Source of the DNA: a virus
Direction: 5' to 3' (one strand)
Length of the DNA stretch: 20,016 nucleotides
IMG/VR virus record: IMGVR_UViG_3300033151_000994
Coordinates: 1 to 20,016 of that record
Shown: positions 6,768 through 19,632 of the stretch, in pieces
How the letters are laid out: each line of letters begins with the position of its first letter
How positions within the stretch are numbered: the first letter of the stretch is position 1
Program-made: the position numbers and the translations under genes
Notes under the pieces: model-generated
The model's input: only the letters and a program-made list of their open reading frames with translations
Database searches by the model: none
Told to the model about the DNA's origin: nothing

Positions 6768-7775
6768 ATGACAATCGGACAAGGATTTACAGGCAGAATC
6801 GGAGTAATCAAAGAAGCTGTTTACGGGACTATACTTGAAGTGACTGAGGCGATACCGTTTGTTTCGGAATCATTTGGCGATACAATAGAGAACTATCCTG
6901 ATGAAGTTTTGCGAGGTTATGCAGGCCGCGGAACAAGCATCACCGGCAACAAACTTCATCCGTTTACTATCCCCAGTAAACTGACGTATCAGGATCTTGA
7001 TTTGCTGATTGCTATAGCGATGGGCGCAGCCGGTACCCCTCAAATTAACGGCACTTTGTATGACAACACGTATTCTCTTGCCGAAAGTCTTGATTATTCC
7101 CTTACTATGGCTGTGTACAAGGGAGTGGCGGTCTGGGAATACGCAGGCTGCAAGATCGACACAATGAAGATCAGCGGTGAAAGCAACAAGCCTCTTGATT
7201 TTGAATTCAGCGGGGCCGCCAAAGCCCTTGATATGGCATCGGCTACAAATACAACCAGTATACTGACAGCACTTACTGCCGAGGATGCTGTTTCAAAGAT
7301 AATGTTTACTGATCTGGAATTCAAGATTGCGGCCCAGGCTGATGTTTTGTCAGGCGAATCTGAATCAGGACTCAGTTCGTTTGAGCTGTCCCTGTCAAAC
7401 AACCTGGTATTAGATCAGTTTGATAACCGTGCAAATACAGTTTTAGAACCGGTGCGCAATGGATTTCGGGACGTTAAATTTAATTTTACGGTACCACGTT
7501 ACGAAGCAAACACCTACCATGCCTGGCATGCAGCGGATACAGCGCTTCACGCACAACTGAAGTTTACCAGAGGAAACTATCTTTTTGACATCCATATCCC
7601 TGATATAAAAATCGAAAAAACAGATGCACCAGTTAGCGGCCCGGGACTGATCAGTCAGAGCATTGAATGCACATGCTGTCTCGACATAGGAAATGATTCA
7701 ACCAGCTTTACGCCACTGACTGAAGAATTTGAGATCGATGTGACAAACGGACGCAGTGCATCACCGCTGGCATAA
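6768..7775 (+). CDS. Tail tube protein, paralogue 1
   Basis: A 335-aa beta-rich protein with a good Shine-Dalgarno (AAGGAG). Landmarks are an N-terminal AVYGT (18-22), IPFVSES (30-36), WEY (123-125), an SSFELSLSNNL block (203-213), VPRYE (242-246), and SGPG (290-293) near the end. The same landmarks recur in the same order in the gene at 8239-9303. They fit long siphoviral tail-tube proteins (Phage_tube-type), which stack as hexamers along the tape measure. It occupies the gpV position after the U-like gene. An unusual CTCC cluster lies at residues 301-304. The stop is four bases before the amidase start. Confidence 0.75.
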   Translation: MTIGQGFTGRIGVIKEAVYGTILEVTEAIPFVSESFGDTIENYPDEVLRGYAGRGTSITGNKLHPFTIPSKLTYQDLDLLIAIAMGAAGTPQINGTLYDNTYSLAESLDYSLTMAVYKGVAVWEYAGCKIDTMKISGESNKPLDFEFSGAAKALDMASATNTTSILTALTAEDAVSKIMFTDLEFKIAAQADVLSGESESGLSSFELSLSNNLVLDQFDNRANTVLEPVRNGFRDVKFNFTVPRYEANTYHAWHAADTALHAQLKFTRGNYLFDIHIPDIKIEKTDAPVSGPGLISQSIECTCCLDIGNDSTSFTPLTEEFEIDVTNGRSASPLA

Positions 7776-7778
7776 AAA

Positions 7779-8258
7779 ATGAGATTACTATCAGACATAA
7801 AAAAAATTATAGTACATTGCAGCGGCTCGGAATTCGGAGACGTGGCTCTGATTGACCGTTGGCACCGAGAGCGGGGCTGGAATGGTTGTGGCTATCACTA
7901 CATAATCTGTAATGGAGTCATTGCTCACGGCAATCAGTACGATCCTGAACATGACGGCATGATCCAGCAAGGCCGCAACCTATCTGTGATAGGCGCACAC
8001 TGCAAAGGTCATAACAGTGACAGCATAGGTATATGTTTGATAGGCAGACATAACTTTACAGCACAGCAGTTGTTGGTCGCTCTGCCTGATCTGCTTATTA
8101 TGTTTGGGGATCACGGCATCGGCATCAAAGCAGACGATATTTTTGGACACTGTGAGTTTAATCAAAACAAAACCTGCCCAAATATAGATCCAGTGCTGAT
8201 CAGGAATATGGTCAGAAGGTTCAGGGGAGTGAGGGGCGATGACCGGTATCGGCTATAA
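7779..8258 (+). CDS. N-acetylmuramoyl-L-alanine amidase (T7 lysozyme/PGRP type)
   Basis: A 159-aa zinc amidase that would cut the lactyl-Ala bond of peptidoglycan. Zinc ligands are His13 (IIVHCSGS), His124 (FGHCEF) and Cys133 (NKTCPN). Catalytic helpers are Tyr39 (GYHY) and Lys131, two residues before the ligand Cys, exactly as Tyr46, Lys128 and Cys130 are placed in T7 lysozyme. The IDRWHRERGW, IGAHCKGHN and SIGICLIG motifs are also present. It has no signal peptide or membrane segment, so it needs the holin for export. It lies between two tail-tube paralogues instead of next to the holin genes. The start has no clear Shine-Dalgarno and follows the tube stop by three bases, and its end overlaps the next gene by 20 bp. 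Endolysin is most likely; a tail-borne enzyme is possible. Confidence 0.93.
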   Translation: MRLLSDIKKIIVHCSGSEFGDVALIDRWHRERGWNGCGYHYIICNGVIAHGNQYDPEHDGMIQQGRNLSVIGAHCKGHNSDSIGICLIGRHNFTAQQLLVALPDLLIMFGDHGIGIKADDIFGHCEFNQNKTCPNIDPVLIRNMVRRFRGVRGDDRYRL

Positions 8259-9303
8259 GTCAAAATCAGCATGGCAAAAAGAAACAGGTAATTATGGTAC
8301 GCCAATTGCCTGTGGCGCTGATGCTCAGATCCCGCTGATATCCGAAACCCTTTCCCGTGAAATTGCGAAAGAGTTTGATAATATTATCATGGATGCAGCC
8401 GGATACGGAAGCAGCGATCTTCTCAGTAAATCAGTGTCAGGCGGGATAATAATCAACGCCGTGTACAGAGGCATTGAATCAATCCTTTGCAGTGCCCTGG
8501 GTTATTCAAACACAGCTACATCCCCGGCATTAATTGCAACCGGCGTATATAAACATACCCTTGAACTTGCCGAACACCTGCACGAAGAGCCCTCAAAGAT
8601 TCGTCGCGGGACACTGTGTATTGATAAAGCGGTCTCTATCTGGGAATACATTTCGACAATGGTCAATTTAATGACTATCAAGGGAAATTCAAAGGGCATC
8701 CGCATTGAGCTTGATCTCATTCCTTATAATCTTGATCGCTCTTCATCGACAAACACATCTTCAGCCTCCTGGACAATCCCGAATAGCGACTGGGGATCAG
8801 TGCTGTTCCAGGACATGGAGCTGTGGATTGACGATTATTCAGACTCGGCAGCTCTCACAGGTGCAGACGCCGTGGGCATATCGGAATTTGAAATCAGGCT
8901 TGATAATAATCTCAAAATTGAAAAAGACAGCCTGTCAGGACTCTATATTGCAGAGCCCAGGCGTCAAGGAAAGCGTCTAATTACAGGCTCATTCACTTTT
9001 CCACGATACGAAAGCGATGCGTTTCTTGACCATTTTGATGACCAGACAGCACAGATGGCTTTGCTGAAATTTGTCGGCTCTGAAATTGGATCAACCGGAT
9101 ATTACAACTCGCTATGGATCTGGCTGCCCACGCTCAAGTTCGACAATGTTTCTGCACTATTGAGCGGGCCGGGCATGCTAACAGTTACTCACGAATTTAC
9201 ATGCGAGTTACCGGCGGCAGCTCCATACGGTTTTCCATCACAGGCAAGCAAAGAACTATTGGTGCAGATACAAAACAATTTAAGTATAAATCCGATGGCA
9301 TAA
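8239..9303 (+). CDS. Tail tube-like protein, paralogue 2
   Basis: A 354-aa protein homologous over its whole length to the tube protein at 6768-7775. Matching landmarks are GNYGT (18-22), IPLISET (31-37), WEY (135-137), SEFEIRLDNNL (215-225), FPRYES (254-259) and LSGPG (308-312). The offset stays at 12 residues from WEY through PRYE, so it is an old duplication and not a chance resemblance. DNA identity is low, again pointing to an old event. It overlaps the amidase end by 20 bp in another frame. It may form part of the tube, a tail-tip ring, or a second tube subunit. The order tube, amidase, tube is unusual. Confidence 0.75.
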   Translation: MTGIGYKSKSAWQKETGNYGTPIACGADAQIPLISETLSREIAKEFDNIIMDAAGYGSSDLLSKSVSGGIIINAVYRGIESILCSALGYSNTATSPALIATGVYKHTLELAEHLHEEPSKIRRGTLCIDKAVSIWEYISTMVNLMTIKGNSKGIRIELDLIPYNLDRSSSTNTSSASWTIPNSDWGSVLFQDMELWIDDYSDSAALTGADAVGISEFEIRLDNNLKIEKDSLSGLYIAEPRRQGKRLITGSFTFPRYESDAFLDHFDDQTAQMALLKFVGSEIGSTGYYNSLWIWLPTLKFDNVSALLSGPGMLTVTHEFTCELPAAAPYGFPSQASKELLVQIQNNLSINPMA

Positions 9304-9319
9304 AAAAGGAGATAAACAA

Positions 9320-9865
9320 ATGAATAAGAAGATTTTTCCGCACTTACTAGGCTTCCCTGGCCATATGAGCGTCGCAGAAAAGAATAAAGACAAAGGCTTG
9401 TTGGGCTATGTGAAGGTTATACATCGAGACAAAGACGGCAACGTTATTTATGAAAATGCCGCTGCGCTGATTGATGCAGGTGAAGAGCATATGCTCAAGG
9501 GTTGGGTGCAGGGCGTTGCAACTTCAATTCCAAGCGGTTTCAAGGTCAATCTTGTCGAAGATGACACTATTCTTGAAACAGCTACCACATACACGGTCAT
9601 AACAGGTACCGGTTATGCCGAAGTGGCAGTGGCCCATGATGCTGTTGACTGGACAGCAGCTTTCGATGATCCTGACTGGAAAGTGACATCAAAAGATTGC
9701 GTATTTACTGCAACCGGAGCTGACTGGACAACGGCAGATATAGTTGTGCTCGAAGCAACCCTGAATTCAACTGATACATTGATCGCCTATGCTGATCTAT
9801 CGCAAGCCAGAACAGTAGGTAACGGTGAAAGCCTGACCGTATCTTTTATACTGAAACTATCATAG
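9320..9865 (+). CDS. Hypothetical virion-associated protein
   Basis: A 181-aa protein with a good Shine-Dalgarno (AAAAGGAG). The N-terminus carries HLLGFPGHMSVAEKN, then a strand pair VKVIHRDKDGNVIYEN of the kind found in phage structural proteins. The C-terminal half (VFTATGADWTTADIVVLEAT, ADLSQARTVGNGESLTVSFIL) is a beta-rich pattern common in phage decoration and fibre-associated proteins. I do not recognise a named family. It lies between the second tube gene and the chaperone gene, so a tail decoration or tube-associated role is plausible but inferred. Confidence 0.6.
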   Translation: MNKKIFPHLLGFPGHMSVAEKNKDKGLLGYVKVIHRDKDGNVIYENAAALIDAGEEHMLKGWVQGVATSIPSGFKVNLVEDDTILETATTYTVITGTGYAEVAVAHDAVDWTAAFDDPDWKVTSKDCVFTATGADWTTADIVVLEATLNSTDTLIAYADLSQARTVGNGESLTVSFILKLS

Positions 9866-9884: not shown

Positions 9885-10214
9885 ATGCCCATACAGATTA
9901 TAGATAACGATGAAAAACTTACATACGAAATTGAAGGCTCAAAGATATTTTACAGGCGCATTACCACACTGAAGCGCGGGGTGATTGTAAAACGACACAC
10001 TAAACGCGGCAAAGCAGACTGGAATGCCATAACCGAGGAAATGTTGCGTTATATCATCACTGGCTGGAAAAATGTTCAAAAATCAGGAGAGGAAATAACA
10101 TTTGATCCGGATCTGATCACAGCGATCCCTGAAGATGTCCTCACCGAGATCCTGGAACTCGCCGGCGCACCATCACACGAATTGTCAGGATCCGAGGACA
10201 CGGAAAAAAACTAA
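9885..10214 (+). CDS. Tail assembly chaperone, short form (gpG-like)
   Basis: A 109-aa protein. The middle part (ITEEMLRYIITGWKNVQKSG, EITFDPDLITAIPEDVLTEI) matches tail assembly chaperones encoded upstream of tape measure genes. These coat the tape measure and recruit tube subunits. The gene ends at TAA 10212-10214, directly after a canonical slippery heptamer A_AAA_AAC (10205-10211). A -1 slip there continues into the frame at 10211-10519 and yields a 211-aa G-T fusion, as in lambda. Its translation start region is a 17-bp match to that of the tape measure gene (GACGAAGGAGCGACATG). Confidence 0.85.
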   Translation: MPIQIIDNDEKLTYEIEGSKIFYRRITTLKRGVIVKRHTKRGKADWNAITEEMLRYIITGWKNVQKSGEEITFDPDLITAIPEDVLTEILELAGAPSHELSGSEDTEKN

Positions 10215-10580: not shown

Positions 10581-12674
10581 ATGTCCCTATCAATAGCCCT
10601 CGAAGTTAATGACAAAGGTTCCGTGGTTGTCAGAAAATTTTCCAGGGATACTGTCAATAGCGTAAAAAAAATGACCGACAAATCAATCGGTCACGTCAAG
10701 CGGTTATCTGCGAAATTCACAAAAGGTCTTGGCGGTGCCGTTAAAATGGTAGGCAAGGGCTTGCTGAGTCTCAAAACCATGGCCATGGGTGCGCTTGCGG
10801 GATGGGGCATTACAAAAGTCTTGACCGAGTTTGCAACCTTTGAATCTGCCCTTGCTGATATGGGCAAAGTCACGGATGAGAGCTTTGATTCAATACAGAA
10901 AAAGATCATGAAGCTACCTGCCAGCCTGGGCAGTTCCACAGAACTTGTCAGAGGATATTACCAGGTAATTTCCGCAGGCGTCAAAGGCGCGGCAAACCAA
11001 ATTAATGCCCTAACCACAGCCTCAAAGCTGGCCAAAACAGCCCATGCCGAACAAGGCACAGTAATTGTTGGCCTGTCATCTGTCATGGATGCATTTAAAA
11101 CATCATCAATAGGGGCAGCCGATGCAATGCAAACAATGGAAAAGACAGGCAAGACAACAGTGGGCGGCCTTATCCCTATCATAGGTGAAATTTCTTCATC
11201 ATCCGCAGCCCTGGGAATCAGCCTAGATGAAATGGGAGCTGCATTTGCTGCAGTTACACTCCAGAGTGGCGGCACTGAAAAGGCTGCAACCCAGTATAAG
11301 GCCGTGATGAACTCGCTTATAGCACCTACAAAAGACATGTCATTACTATTAAGCAAGTACGGCGGCATACAGGAAGCTATTAAGCAGGTCGGGTTTGGCG
11401 GAGTTATGCGCATGATTGCACAGGCCACAGGCGGCAATGCTGAAGCAACAAAAAAATTACTTGGCTCAACAGAGGCATATCTCGGCTTCCTAAGTGTTTC
11501 AGCAAATCAGATGCAAACTTACAACCAGAACCTGGAAGAGCAAAAAAACAAAACCGGTGCAGTGGACAAGGCGTGGAAAGATTATAAAAAAACCCTCAAT
11601 GCCATATGGGAGACATTTAAAAATACTGTTGGCAAGCAAGTAATTTTAATAGGCGAAAAACTGGCTCCAACGGTCAAGGATATGATCGAGAAAACTTCCA
11701 CCTGGCTGGAAAAAAACAGAGAGCTCATTACTATAAAGCTAAGCGACTGGATTCAAAGGGGCTTGGAAAAAATAAAATATCTGGTCGCAAAAATAAAAGA
11801 ATGGGAAAAGGCGAACGATCATATTATCAAGAGCATCAAGGCTATTATATCCTGTGTCAATTTCCTGATTAAAGCTTTTGTGGCGCTTGGAAAGAATATC
11901 GGCATTGTAGCAGCCCAGATTGTAGGCTTTTTTGAAAAAGCGTATAACAAAATAAGTGCATTTGTAACCAAGATTAAAAACCTTGTCGCTAAACCGATAA
12001 AAATAGTCACAGAATTTATTGGCAAAGGTTCAACAGCAAAGCCGTTATCCGACAAAATTTCCGAAATGTTAAAGCTCAGCACTGACTATAGTGCTGCTAT
12101 CAATAAACAAAAGACCACTGCGGTTACTGATTTTACGGGCGTAGGATCTGGCACCGGTGAAACGTCCATGTCTAATGCGATGCAGAGTATAGAGGACAAA
12201 TGGGCATCGACTGCAGCGAGTATTGAAAATATTGTACCTGCTTTAACCATTGACACATCTCCTTTAATTACTGCTATCGACAGCGTTGAAGCGCGTGTAA
12301 ACTCCTACATTTCTAATATTTTTAAAGTGATGGCCAAAACTGTATATTCCATACAATCTATAAACCCTGGGTCACCGGGAGCGGGGTTCGCTCAGCGCGC
12401 TATGAAAGAAGATATAAACGCATATCAATCGATGATTGATAAAAGACGGATTACTGCTGATATAGAAATTGGATTGTTGCGGCAGTATTATGGTGGAACA
12501 GGGCTCACGTCTTCAGGTTCATCACAAACAATTCATAATAATAATAATAATACTAAAATTGGAGATATACATCTGAATATTCCTGCAAGTACAAACCTGC
12601 AAAGCGCTCAAGATTGGCGTTATATTGTACGGGAAAAGATTATTCCTGAACTCAGATCTGTAAATTATGCCTAA
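10581..12674 (+). CDS. Tail tape measure protein
   Basis: A 697-aa protein. The N-terminal 50 residues are basic and helical, followed by a glycine- and alanine-rich hydrophobic stretch (about 58-82). Next comes the TP901/PhageMin_Tail core (EFATFESALADMGKVTDES, VRGYYQVISAGVKG, SAALGISLDEMGAAFA), then long helices with a hydrophobic segment around residues 415-455 (IIKSIKAIISCVNFLIKAFVAL). The C-terminus holds a run of five Asn encoded by repeated AAT. The tape measure fixes tail length and is ejected through the membrane; by the usual 0.15 nm per residue, the tail would be near 100 nm. The start has GAAGGAG 5 nt upstream. The stop overlaps the next start. Confidence 0.93.
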   Translation: MSLSIALEVNDKGSVVVRKFSRDTVNSVKKMTDKSIGHVKRLSAKFTKGLGGAVKMVGKGLLSLKTMAMGALAGWGITKVLTEFATFESALADMGKVTDESFDSIQKKIMKLPASLGSSTELVRGYYQVISAGVKGAANQINALTTASKLAKTAHAEQGTVIVGLSSVMDAFKTSSIGAADAMQTMEKTGKTTVGGLIPIIGEISSSSAALGISLDEMGAAFAAVTLQSGGTEKAATQYKAVMNSLIAPTKDMSLLLSKYGGIQEAIKQVGFGGVMRMIAQATGGNAEATKKLLGSTEAYLGFLSVSANQMQTYNQNLEEQKNKTGAVDKAWKDYKKTLNAIWETFKNTVGKQVILIGEKLAPTVKDMIEKTSTWLEKNRELITIKLSDWIQRGLEKIKYLVAKIKEWEKANDHIIKSIKAIISCVNFLIKAFVALGKNIGIVAAQIVGFFEKAYNKISAFVTKIKNLVAKPIKIVTEFIGKGSTAKPLSDKISEMLKLSTDYSAAINKQKTTAVTDFTGVGSGTGETSMSNAMQSIEDKWASTAASIENIVPALTIDTSPLITAIDSVEARVNSYISNIFKVMAKTVYSIQSINPGSPGAGFAQRAMKEDINAYQSMIDKRRITADIEIGLLRQYYGGTGLTSSGSSQTIHNNNNNTKIGDIHLNIPASTNLQSAQDWRYIVREKIIPELRSVNYA

Positions 12675-16638: not shown

Positions 16639-18318
16639 ATGGCTTCACAGCAAAAAATACAGCGCTGGGGCTCTTTCCAGGATATCCAATATGCTGTTAA
16701 GAAGAATGCTGAGAAAATTTATAGAGTTAATCCAGATAGTATCGTGCTGGCAGTTCCATCCTTTTGGGGTTTGCCTGCGCTTGATTATTCTGGAAAAAGA
16801 AATAATGGAATTAACTCCCTCGCACAATACCAGGATGGGAGTCTTGATTTTGCAAACTCTGCTGCTAAAATAAATTTTGGGGAAGGCAATGGTGATTTCG
16901 ATTTCGGCAATGGGGAATTTAGTTGTTTTGTTCGTTTTAAGCGACATGCAATAAGCAATGTCTACGAAACGGTATTGTCGAAATGGGACGCCGGATTCCC
17001 ATCGAGTTATTGGCTGCGGATCGCGGATACAAATATTATCTATGTGGGCCATAGAACTGAGGCCGAAGGCAGATGGTACGTATGGAGTACCGGAACGATA
17101 GGGCTTGGTTGGCACAACATAGTAGTTCAAAGAAATTTGTCATCTGAACAATATGAAATTTACATAAACGGCGAACCGGATTTTTACGTCGAATCCGGTC
17201 AGATTAGCTATTCTGACGATTTCAGCAATAACGCCAACTTGGTTGTGGGCTGCGCAACAAGTGGCGCTGAAAATTTTAATGGTGCTATAGAAACTATATA
17301 TGTTTCTAGAGATGCTTTTCATAATGCTGACCAAATTGATAAAATTAATGAACAGCCTTTAGCTTTGTATCAGCGAGTAAGCAGGCCGATTTATTCTTTT
17401 CCGACAGTCGTCAACATAGATGAAACCAATAAGCTCATATCTATAATATCGACCGTATCAGCAACCGATTTCCAGGCCTACAAAGACCTGCAAAAGCTGA
17501 TTGAAATAGTTTCCACAATTCAGGGGTCTGACCTCCAGGCCTACAAAGACCTGCAAAAGCTGATTGAAATAGTTTCCACAATTCAGGGGTCTGACCTCCA
17601 GGCCTACAAAGACCTGCAAAAACTAATTGAAATTTCTTCTGTCATTACTGCATCAGATATTCAGGCATACAAAGAAACAGATAAACAAGTCTTTATTACC
17701 TCAACAATCTTGGCCACAGACATCCAGGGATTTATTGAAGATTTGCTTATCGCTATAACATCCACGGTCTCAGAAACAGACCTGCTTTCATACAATGAGC
17801 GAAACAGAACCATACCAATAGCTGCGACCATATCCGTTTCAAACCTCCAGACATATAAAGACATCGTAAACATACTGATCGCCTCAACCATCGCAGGCAC
17901 AGACGTTCAGGCATACAAAGATCTGAACCTGCAAATCCCTATCACCTCGACGATCTCATCCACAGACATCCAGGGATTTATAGAAAAACTGCTAATAGGC
18001 ATCACGACAACAGTCTCGGAAACAGACCTGCTGTCATACAATGAGCGAAATCGCACAATACCAATAGCGGCAACTATCTCAGTCGCTGGCATCCAGGCAT
18101 ACAAAGATGCCTTAAGCATACAGATAACATCTTCATTTACTGCATCTGACTTCCAGTTTTATGTAGATCAAGGGATTGTTTCCATAGTTTGCACGATCTC
18201 AGCATCCGATGCAATGTCCGGCCTTGCGTCAGCACATGTCAGGGTAGCATTTACAGTAGTTCCCAGGACAAAAGAATTTACAGTAGTTCCCAGGACAAAA
18301 GAATTTACAGTAGTTTAA
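16639..18318 (+). CDS. Tail fibre with LamG-like domain and tandem beta repeats
   Basis: A 559-aa protein. Residues about 34-245 look like a LamG/concanavalin jelly-roll (LDYSGKRNNGINS, FSCFVRFKRHA, WHNIVVQRN, YEIYINGEP, GAIETIYVSRDAF), a sugar-binding fold typical of receptor-binding proteins. A linker (LYQRVSRPIYSFPT) follows. From about 267 to 541 come about 13 units of 20-21 residues with the pattern I-x-I-x-S-T-I-x-x-x-D-x-Q-A-Y-K-D-L, likely forming a fibrous beta stem. The C-terminus is a 9-residue repeat (FTVVPRTKE) at least twice. It probably is the host-range fibre. The start abuts the previous stop with no clear Shine-Dalgarno, indicating coupling. Confidence 0.85.
   Translation: MASQQKIQRWGSFQDIQYAVKKNAEKIYRVNPDSIVLAVPSFWGLPALDYSGKRNNGINSLAQYQDGSLDFANSAAKINFGEGNGDFDFGNGEFSCFVRFKRHAISNVYETVLSKWDAGFPSSYWLRIADTNIIYVGHRTEAEGRWYVWSTGTIGLGWHNIVVQRNLSSEQYEIYINGEPDFYVESGQISYSDDFSNNANLVVGCATSGAENFNGAIETIYVSRDAFHNADQIDKINEQPLALYQRVSRPIYSFPTVVNIDETNKLISIISTVSATDFQAYKDLQKLIEIVSTIQGSDLQAYKDLQKLIEIVSTIQGSDLQAYKDLQKLIEISSVITASDIQAYKETDKQVFITSTILATDIQGFIEDLLIAITSTVSETDLLSYNERNRTIPIAATISVSNLQTYKDIVNILIASTIAGTDVQAYKDLNLQIPITSTISSTDIQGFIEKLLIGITTTVSETDLLSYNERNRTIPIAATISVAGIQAYKDALSIQITSSFTASDFQFYVDQGIVSIVCTISASDAMSGLASAHVRVAFTVVPRTKEFTVVPRTKEFTVV
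17471..17619 (+). repeat. 63-bp coding repeat, two identical copies plus partial
   Basis: Positions 17471-17533 and 17534-17596 are identical, and the third unit starts at 17597 and agrees until about 17620, then diverges. The 63-bp length equals one 21-residue unit of the fibre stem. Identity at synonymous sites shows a recent tandem duplication, whereas the other units of the fibre have diverged. Confidence 0.9.
18250..18315 (+). repeat. 27-bp tandem repeat at the 3' end of the fibre gene
   Basis: A 27-bp unit beginning TTTACAGTAGTTCCCAGG occurs at 18250-18276 and 18277-18303 without change, and its first 12 bases recur at 18304-18315 directly before the TAA TAA stops. The encoded unit is FTVVPRTKE. 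Because the length is a multiple of three, copy-number changes would keep the frame. Confidence 0.9.
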
Positions 18319-18347: not shown

Positions 18348-18668
18348 ATGGCGTTAAATGTAAATCCTGATGATGAATTCAAGATAGAAAAAGGTGAGGA
18401 TGTTGCATACAGATTAAACCTCAATCCTGAGCTGGACGGCGATACAATTGATACATATACGTTTGAAATATATAACGACAATGATGAAGAGGTAACATCT
18501 GATTTTGCAGGAGGCAGCGATGATGCCGCCGGATACATAACGTTCGGGGTTATTGCCTACGAAACAGGTGAATACACAATAAAAATATGGACAACATGCA
18601 ACGAAATGCTGCCAAACACCACAACTCCTAAGAAATTTCTGGTAAAACTGACAGTAACTGTTGAATGA
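18348..18668 (+). CDS. Hypothetical 106-aa phage protein (Ig-like style)
   Basis: An acidic, beta-rich protein beginning ALNVNPDDEFKIEKGEDVAYRL. It alternates strands (DTYTFEIYNDNDEEV, TGEYTIKIWTTCNEM) and ends KKFLVKLTVTVE, the general form of an immunoglobulin-like or fibronectin-like sandwich. AAAGG lies upstream. It lies between the fibre gene and the lysis genes, so an accessory fibre or adhesion role is possible. No family recognised. Confidence 0.6.
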   Translation: MALNVNPDDEFKIEKGEDVAYRLNLNPELDGDTIDTYTFEIYNDNDEEVTSDFAGGSDDAAGYITFGVIAYETGEYTIKIWTTCNEMLPNTTTPKKFLVKLTVTVE

Positions 18669-18687
18669 AAGGACGGGTGATATTGAT

Positions 18688-18948
18688 ATGGGACCTGAAA
18701 GAAGACTGAAAAGCGATGAAATTGAAAGGCGCTTAAATTCAATAGAAAACACAACAACAAATATATATAAAATCCTAAACGGCAACGGCAAGCCTGGCCT
18801 TGTTACAAAAGTGGCCCTGCATGAACAGCATTTCAAAAGCATACCATCGCCAAACAGCCTGCGCTTTCAGGCGTCAGTGGGCGGTGGAATCGTGATGGTA
18901 TTAAGCATGATCGGCTATGCTATAATACAAATTTTCAAGAGCAATTAA
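18688..18948 (+). CDS. XhlA-like membrane protein (lysis accessory)
   Basis: About 86 aa from ATG 18688. Upstream in-frame TTG 18661 lies inside the previous gene and is less likely. The N-terminal half is helical and charged (ERRLKSDEIERRLNSIENTTTNIY), suited to a coiled coil, and the C-terminal part is one membrane segment (VGGGIVMVLSMIGYAIIQIF) with a short basic tail. Amphipathic helix followed by a single C-terminal membrane helix is the layout of XhlA-type proteins, which work with a holin. It lies 13 bp before the holin gene. The family call is by layout only. Confidence 0.65.
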   Translation: MGPERRLKSDEIERRLNSIENTTTNIYKILNGNGKPGLVTKVALHEQHFKSIPSPNSLRFQASVGGGIVMVLSMIGYAIIQIFKSN

Positions 18949-18961
18949 AGGAAGATAAGAT

Positions 18962-19384
18962 ATGGCATTTTTTACAGGAATAAAAGCATTGTTTGCAGCT
19001 CCAAAGTCTATAGACAAAGCACTTGACATAGGTGATAAAATTACCACTGGAGTTATGTCCGGCCTTGATAAACTTTGGTATACAGACGAGGAAAAAGCTG
19101 ATGCAAGGCAAAAGGGTTCAGCCACTCTTCTAAAATTTTGGGAAGTTATAGCTAACGAAAACACAGAACAAAGCAAGGCCCGGCGAGAATTGGCCAAGAT
19201 GACGTTCAAGGTTTATTTCTTCCTCCTTCTGGCCGGCGTGACTGTGTATAGATTTGACGCAGAATATTCAAAATTCATATTTGAAGTCGCTGGTACCCTT
19301 ACAGGGCTCGTTATGGGAGTGGCCGCCATCTACTTTGGCCCACAGCAGATATCTAAAGTTTGGAAAAAAGATAAAAGACAATAA
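18962..19384 (+). CDS. Holin (GTA_holin_3TM-like)
   Basis: A 140-aa protein with a clear AAGGAAG Shine-Dalgarno. The N-terminus (FFTGIKALFAAPKSIDKALDIG) is amphipathic, followed by a charged helix (YTDEEKADARQKG). Two membrane segments follow: KVYFFLLLAGVTVYRF and FIFEVAGTLTGLVMGVAAIYFG, with a basic end (KVWKKDKRQ). Size and layout, with a soluble helix containing E/Q/R repeats and C-terminal membrane hairpin, resemble the holin family described for gene transfer agents and prophages. It would make inner-membrane lesions for the amidase to reach peptidoglycan. No endolysin is adjacent; the only one in the window is at 7779-8258. Confidence 0.7.
   Translation: MAFFTGIKALFAAPKSIDKALDIGDKITTGVMSGLDKLWYTDEEKADARQKGSATLLKFWEVIANENTEQSKARRELAKMTFKVYFFLLLAGVTVYRFDAEYSKFIFEVAGTLTGLVMGVAAIYFGPQQISKVWKKDKRQ

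Positions 19385-19584: not shown

Positions 19585-19632
<48 letters not shown>

Follow-up and report, generated by a model that had tools for sequence, protein, structure and literature searches.

A T7-lysozyme-type amidase gene between two tail-tube paralogues in the late operon of an uncultured phage

Gene content of the window

The window analysed here is the whole of IMG/VR record IMGVR_UViG_3300033151_000994, a stretch of 20,016 bases from an uncultured phage. A late phage operon fills it, with portal, S49 protease, capsid and neck genes preceding a first tail-tube gene (TUBE1), an amidase gene and a second tail-tube gene (TUBE2); an extra gene, the genes for a probable chaperone and the tape measure protein, tail-tip and fibre-like genes and the genes for two small membrane proteins follow. 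The features considered below are:

6768..7775, plus strand: TUBE1, tail-tube protein, the slow-evolving member of the pair (335 aa; PF18906, 8e-25; PHROG 290)
7779..8258, plus strand: T7-lysozyme-type N-acetylmuramoyl-L-alanine amidase, endolysin gene (159 aa; PF01510, 7.5e-10)
8217..8258, plus strand: junction, where the TUBE2 leader, its Shine-Dalgarno (SD) site (AGGGGAGTGAGGGG) and first codons also encode, in the other frame, the extra C-terminal residues of the amidase
8239..9303, plus strand: TUBE2, second tail-tube paralogue (354 aa; PF18906, 3.7e-7)
9320..9865, plus strand: extra gene, possible fibre-cassette protein, absent from this place in relatives
9885..10214, plus strand: probable tail assembly chaperone (weak PHROG 313 match, 0.019; conserved position after TUBE2)
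10581..12674, plus strand: tape measure protein (PHROG 23013, 7.6e-32; PF10145, 1.6e-17)
18661-18948 and 18962-19384, plus strand: two small membrane proteins (hydropathy-predicted membrane segments)

The three central open reading frames exist as the first-pass annotation had given them (6768-7775, 335 aa; 7779-8258, 159 aa; 8239-9303, 354 aa), and so do the 3-nt gap between TUBE1 and the amidase gene (7776-7778) and the 20-nt overlap of the amidase gene with TUBE2 (8239-8258). In the window as in its relatives, the tube genes are located between the tail terminator and the chaperone/tape measure genes, the roles of terminator and chaperone being partly positional. A loss of TerL from the window was considered and rejected: in one relative (L064) TerL lies immediately upstream of the HTH gene, so that the window merely begins downstream of TerL.

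Relatives have no gene corresponding to 9320-9865 between TUBE2 and the probable chaperone; homologues of it with 71–72% identity were found in L116/L117, in a fibre cassette and beside a homologue of the gene at 16639. The product of the latter (16639-18318) has an N-terminal LamG-like match followed by QAYKDLQKLIEIVSTIQGSD-type repeats. Neither of the two membrane proteins (18661-18948, 18962-19384) gave a Pfam match. TTGTCCCTGAA is repeated about five times in tandem within non-coding DNA at 572-630, upstream of the DUF6148 gene. In the window, ARAGORN called no tRNA and Rfam gave no match; a direct reading of the sequence at about 19594-19632, where ARAGORN calls none, points to what looks like the 3' portion of a tRNA gene with a CCA end, and hence to a likely attachment site of a prophage, beyond which host DNA would follow.

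The tail-tube pair and its age

TUBE1 and TUBE2 are true paralogues, as had been proposed for the genes at 6768 and 8239, with a similarity far above chance. BLASTP aligned the two over their whole length (E 2e-29, 29% identity across 355 columns), and a profile-profile comparison returned a probability of 100% (E = 6e-47). The four landmarks that the first-pass annotation had seen in both proteins (WEY, NNL, PRYE and SGPG) fall within blocks that the family alignments show to be conserved. A profile search against tube families, which had been suggested as a check, placed both proteins above the cut-off of Phage_tube_2 (PF18906; 27 bits), TUBE1 with a strong match spanning the whole profile (88.4 bits, 8e-25) and TUBE2 with 30.5 bits (3.7e-7), and PHROG 290 matched both. 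AlphaFold models of TUBE1 and TUBE2, computed from shallow alignments (5 and 6 sequences), had a pLDDT of about 30. Profile searching of the PDB returned no match for TUBE2 and only xylanase-type noise for TUBE1. No internal repeat within the tube was detected, as a half-against-half profile comparison gave no signal and a second comparison re-found only overlapping residues.

A first genome scan with TUBE1 as query identified no relatives, and when 50,697 records of described phages were searched by tblastn, neither tube had a match at E<=1e-5. TUBE1 orthologues of 60–73% identity were identified in 18+ IMG/VR contigs. Conservation was assessed in 18 such contigs (~15 distinct), all of them fragmentary records, that cover TUBE1 plus what follows. 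TUBE2 directly follows TUBE1 in 18/18, nearly always <=160 nt past the TUBE1 stop, and the probable chaperone gene comes directly after TUBE2. Two tubes are thus the rule in the clade of the window. Siphoviruses are usually regarded as one-tube-gene phages; this generalization, on which the first-pass annotation had relied, holds for the outgroup, where homologues were found single, but not for the window's clade.

The larger apparent distance between TUBE1 and TUBE2 in L036 and L037 is mostly an in-frame module inside TUBE1, as seen in L037, where TUBE1 (L037:8001-9188) carries ~65–80 additional residues ahead of its conserved C-terminus; the module is possibly a surface decoration domain. 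Three consecutive tube genes in the order TUBE2-TUBE1-TUBE2 are present at L031:6884-10133, both TUBE2 copies being sisters in the tree, and at L008:4013-5014 a stop codon lies within the TUBE1 frame, due to sequencing error or decay. The window TUBE2 is without a ~17-residue segment (AAGDGILAGSGYLAGD-like) that is present in nearly all TUBE2 orthologues. Two genome contigs that carry the same tail-tip genes (L055, L056) have a single 428-aa gene in the tube slot, with at most a weak relation to tail families.

A maximum-likelihood tree was calculated from 46 tubes, comprising 16 rows of TUBE1, 17 of TUBE2 and 13 of single tubes, the latter obtained from 395 genomes belonging to the same phylum as a Deltaproteobacteria MAG. 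Each of the three sets formed its own group at 100/100, and the duplication would therefore be older than the diversification of the clade; with the root placed between singles and pair, which is an assumption, the tree indicates one duplication before the clade spread. No second tube copy was found beside the single tubes within loci reaching ~1.5 kb on each side. At L117:992-2213, an unrelated phage carries a tandem pair of its own, made up of two paralogues that encode major tail proteins (PHROG 9522, PHROG 4574; BLASTP E 1e-8), and tandem tube duplication thus seems to recur.

The first-pass annotation had raised the possibility of a two-subunit tube. The data are compatible with it and make it more likely, given the great age of the pair and its retention in 18/18 contigs. 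A two-component tube would suit both the retention of the pair and the SD sites of TUBE1 and TUBE2, which are equally strong; judging from conservation, such a tube is probably what this phage has. The more specific reading, that in this uncultured siphovirus-like clade the tube consists of two (once three) obligate, anciently diverged paralogues and is heteromeric or segmented, is held tentatively, at just short of an even chance. Alternatively, TUBE1 alone would form the tube and TUBE2 would be an adaptor or specialised ring at one tube end, like the baseplate-tail connector of HFTV1. The weaker fit of TUBE2 to the tube family (3.7e-7 vs 8e-25 for TUBE1) and its own clade on a long stem would suit such a role, as would the HFTV1 connector ring between tube and hub, which is made of two homologous domains; however, TUBE2 occupies the tube slot, its SD equals that of TUBE1 in strength, and no independent sign of a low-copy role was found. 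We regard an adaptor role as unlikely rather than implausible.

The amidase gene and its junctions

The first-pass annotation had described the middle gene as a complete T7-lysozyme-type amidase with all zinc and catalytic residues, and profile and sequence comparisons agree, with peptidoglycan hydrolysis as its predicted activity. The protein matched Amidase_2 (PF01510, 7.5e-10; 39.7 bits vs a cut-off of 26), PHROG 822 (5.9e-27) and T7 lysozyme (3e-12). Residues H13, Y39, H124, K131 and C133, which from family knowledge we take to be the zinc-binding and catalytic positions, are all present and are invariant among the closest relatives. Pfam and PHROG profile searches detected no extra domain in the amidase and no fusion to a tail protein.

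The nearest amidases (L010, L011, L119 and L120; 52–64% identity) are encoded upstream of terminase genes by phages otherwise unrelated to the window phage, and those of L011, L119 and L120 also adjoin small putative membrane proteins; all four are ordinary endolysins of lysis-terminase cassettes. A tube of the TUBE1/TUBE2 family was present in 0/97 amidase loci. These two observations indicate that genes of this type are at home in lysis modules and that the one in the window was moved or captured. No PF01510 match was found in the records of the relatives, which are all fragments; where lysis genes of tandem-tube relatives are visible, they encode different enzymes and lie upstream of the terminase genes (L057, Amidase_3; L060, SLT lysozyme together with a 3TM holin). 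Since the window is cut just after TerL, another endolysin may be encoded upstream of its left edge.

None of the related contigs has an amidase between TUBE1 and TUBE2 (0/18), and the survey of relatives that had been proposed for the tube-amidase-tube order thus found it not to be conserved. Among the options put forward earlier, this result and the lysis-cassette setting of the nearest relatives favour a recombined endolysin. With no conservation of the gene order and no additional domain in the amidase, the option of an enzyme assembled with the tail is left without support. According to that option the amidase would be a virion-associated lysin that is built in along with the tube, in the lumen or on the surface of the latter, and that breaches the host wall on entry, and gene order would reflect assembly. 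The gene does form part of the tail operon, where its translation probably accompanies that of TUBE1, but the related contigs do without it, it is fused to no tail protein and its nearest counterparts sit in lysis cassettes, which renders a virion-associated lysin highly improbable.

The conserved C-terminus of TUBE1 and the N-terminus of TUBE2 are both intact. Strong SD sites (-8.0 to -8.8 kcal/mol) precede TUBE1, TUBE2 (-8.8 kcal/mol), the 9320 gene and the chaperone and tape measure genes, whereas the amidase start is without one (-1.5 kcal/mol vs a random median of -2.4). The final 11–14 residues of the amidase have no counterpart in its relatives and are encoded by the TUBE2 leader, SD and first codons in the other frame; the same extension might nevertheless be an original part of the protein in some relative not yet sampled. 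GC3 of the amidase gene (0.494) was the highest among the genes compared, a weak hint of insertion. An artefact of metagenome assembly, in which an amidase fragment was joined between the tube genes, would account for the order being confined to a single record, with no second contig of the same order found, but is less probable still, as neither tube ORF is damaged where it meets the amidase gene, the strong TUBE2 SD and a proper stop codon for the amidase are both preserved in the overlap, the GC content is uniform and so exact a join would be unlikely by chance.

Proposed history and comparison with known systems

The arrangement is best explained in two layers, an old and kept tube duplication and a recent insertion of an endolysin uninvolved in tail assembly, a reading that we consider probable. 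A tail-tube gene would have undergone an old tandem duplication that was kept in every related contig extending beyond TUBE1. Both tubes are most likely virion proteins that jointly build one long tail tube, in which the rings surrounding the tape measure may be mixed or segment-specific, with some division of labour between TUBE1 and TUBE2. A stand-alone, presumably cytosolic endolysin gene of the T7-lysozyme type would have been inserted recently, exactly at the TUBE1-TUBE2 junction and, among the records, in this phage only. We infer that its translation is coupled to TUBE1 by termination-reinitiation after the TUBE1 stop. The amidase would then be made with the late tail genes, take no part in tail assembly and wait in the cytoplasm, serving as the phage's endolysin by cutting the cell wall after a holin opens the inner membrane. 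The membrane proteins at 18661-19384 are perhaps candidate lysis partners of the amidase, and one of the two may be this holin. The insertion represents a clear gene gain in a late operon, with the frames of both neighbours kept and the joint still visible, and the old kept tube pair is a natural system in which to ask why two tube subunits would be needed in a tail, be it for alternating rings, distinct ends or length control.

Both window tubes resemble the PF18906/PHROG 290 tail proteins, but in genomes of the same phylum the homologues found were single genes, whereas the clade of the window has an ancient pair. Duplication of the tube fold within one tail is shared with the tail tube proteins of T5 (pb6) and P74-26; there, however, the copies are fused in one chain and form trimeric rings, while the window has separate genes without an internal repeat signal. 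The P74-26 protein is similar in length to the window tubes. Phage G has two neighbouring tail tube candidates, gp179 and gp180, as in the window pair (PMC8570332), but it is a contractile jumbo phage, unlike that of the window, and is likened to TUBE1/TUBE2 by description only. Two tube proteins in one siphovirus tail are also found in SPP1 (gp17.1 and gp17.1*; PMC9022992), where they derive from one gene with a frameshift extension and not from paralogous genes. T7 lysozyme and related amidases (PF01510, PHROG 822) are, like the window amidase, stand-alone catalytic domains of ~150 residues, from which the latter differs in its place between tube genes and in the longer C-terminus derived from the TUBE2 leader. 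In the literature searched, no ancient, always-kept pair of separate tube genes was found for a siphovirus-like clade, and no heteromeric or segmented tube of paralogues was described for isolated phages with long non-contractile tails. The insertion of a stand-alone endolysin gene into a late operon is ordinary phage mosaicism, and tube duplication has precedents in T5, P74-26, phage G, SPP1 and the unrelated pair of L117; the novelty lies in a tube pair that has been kept for so long.
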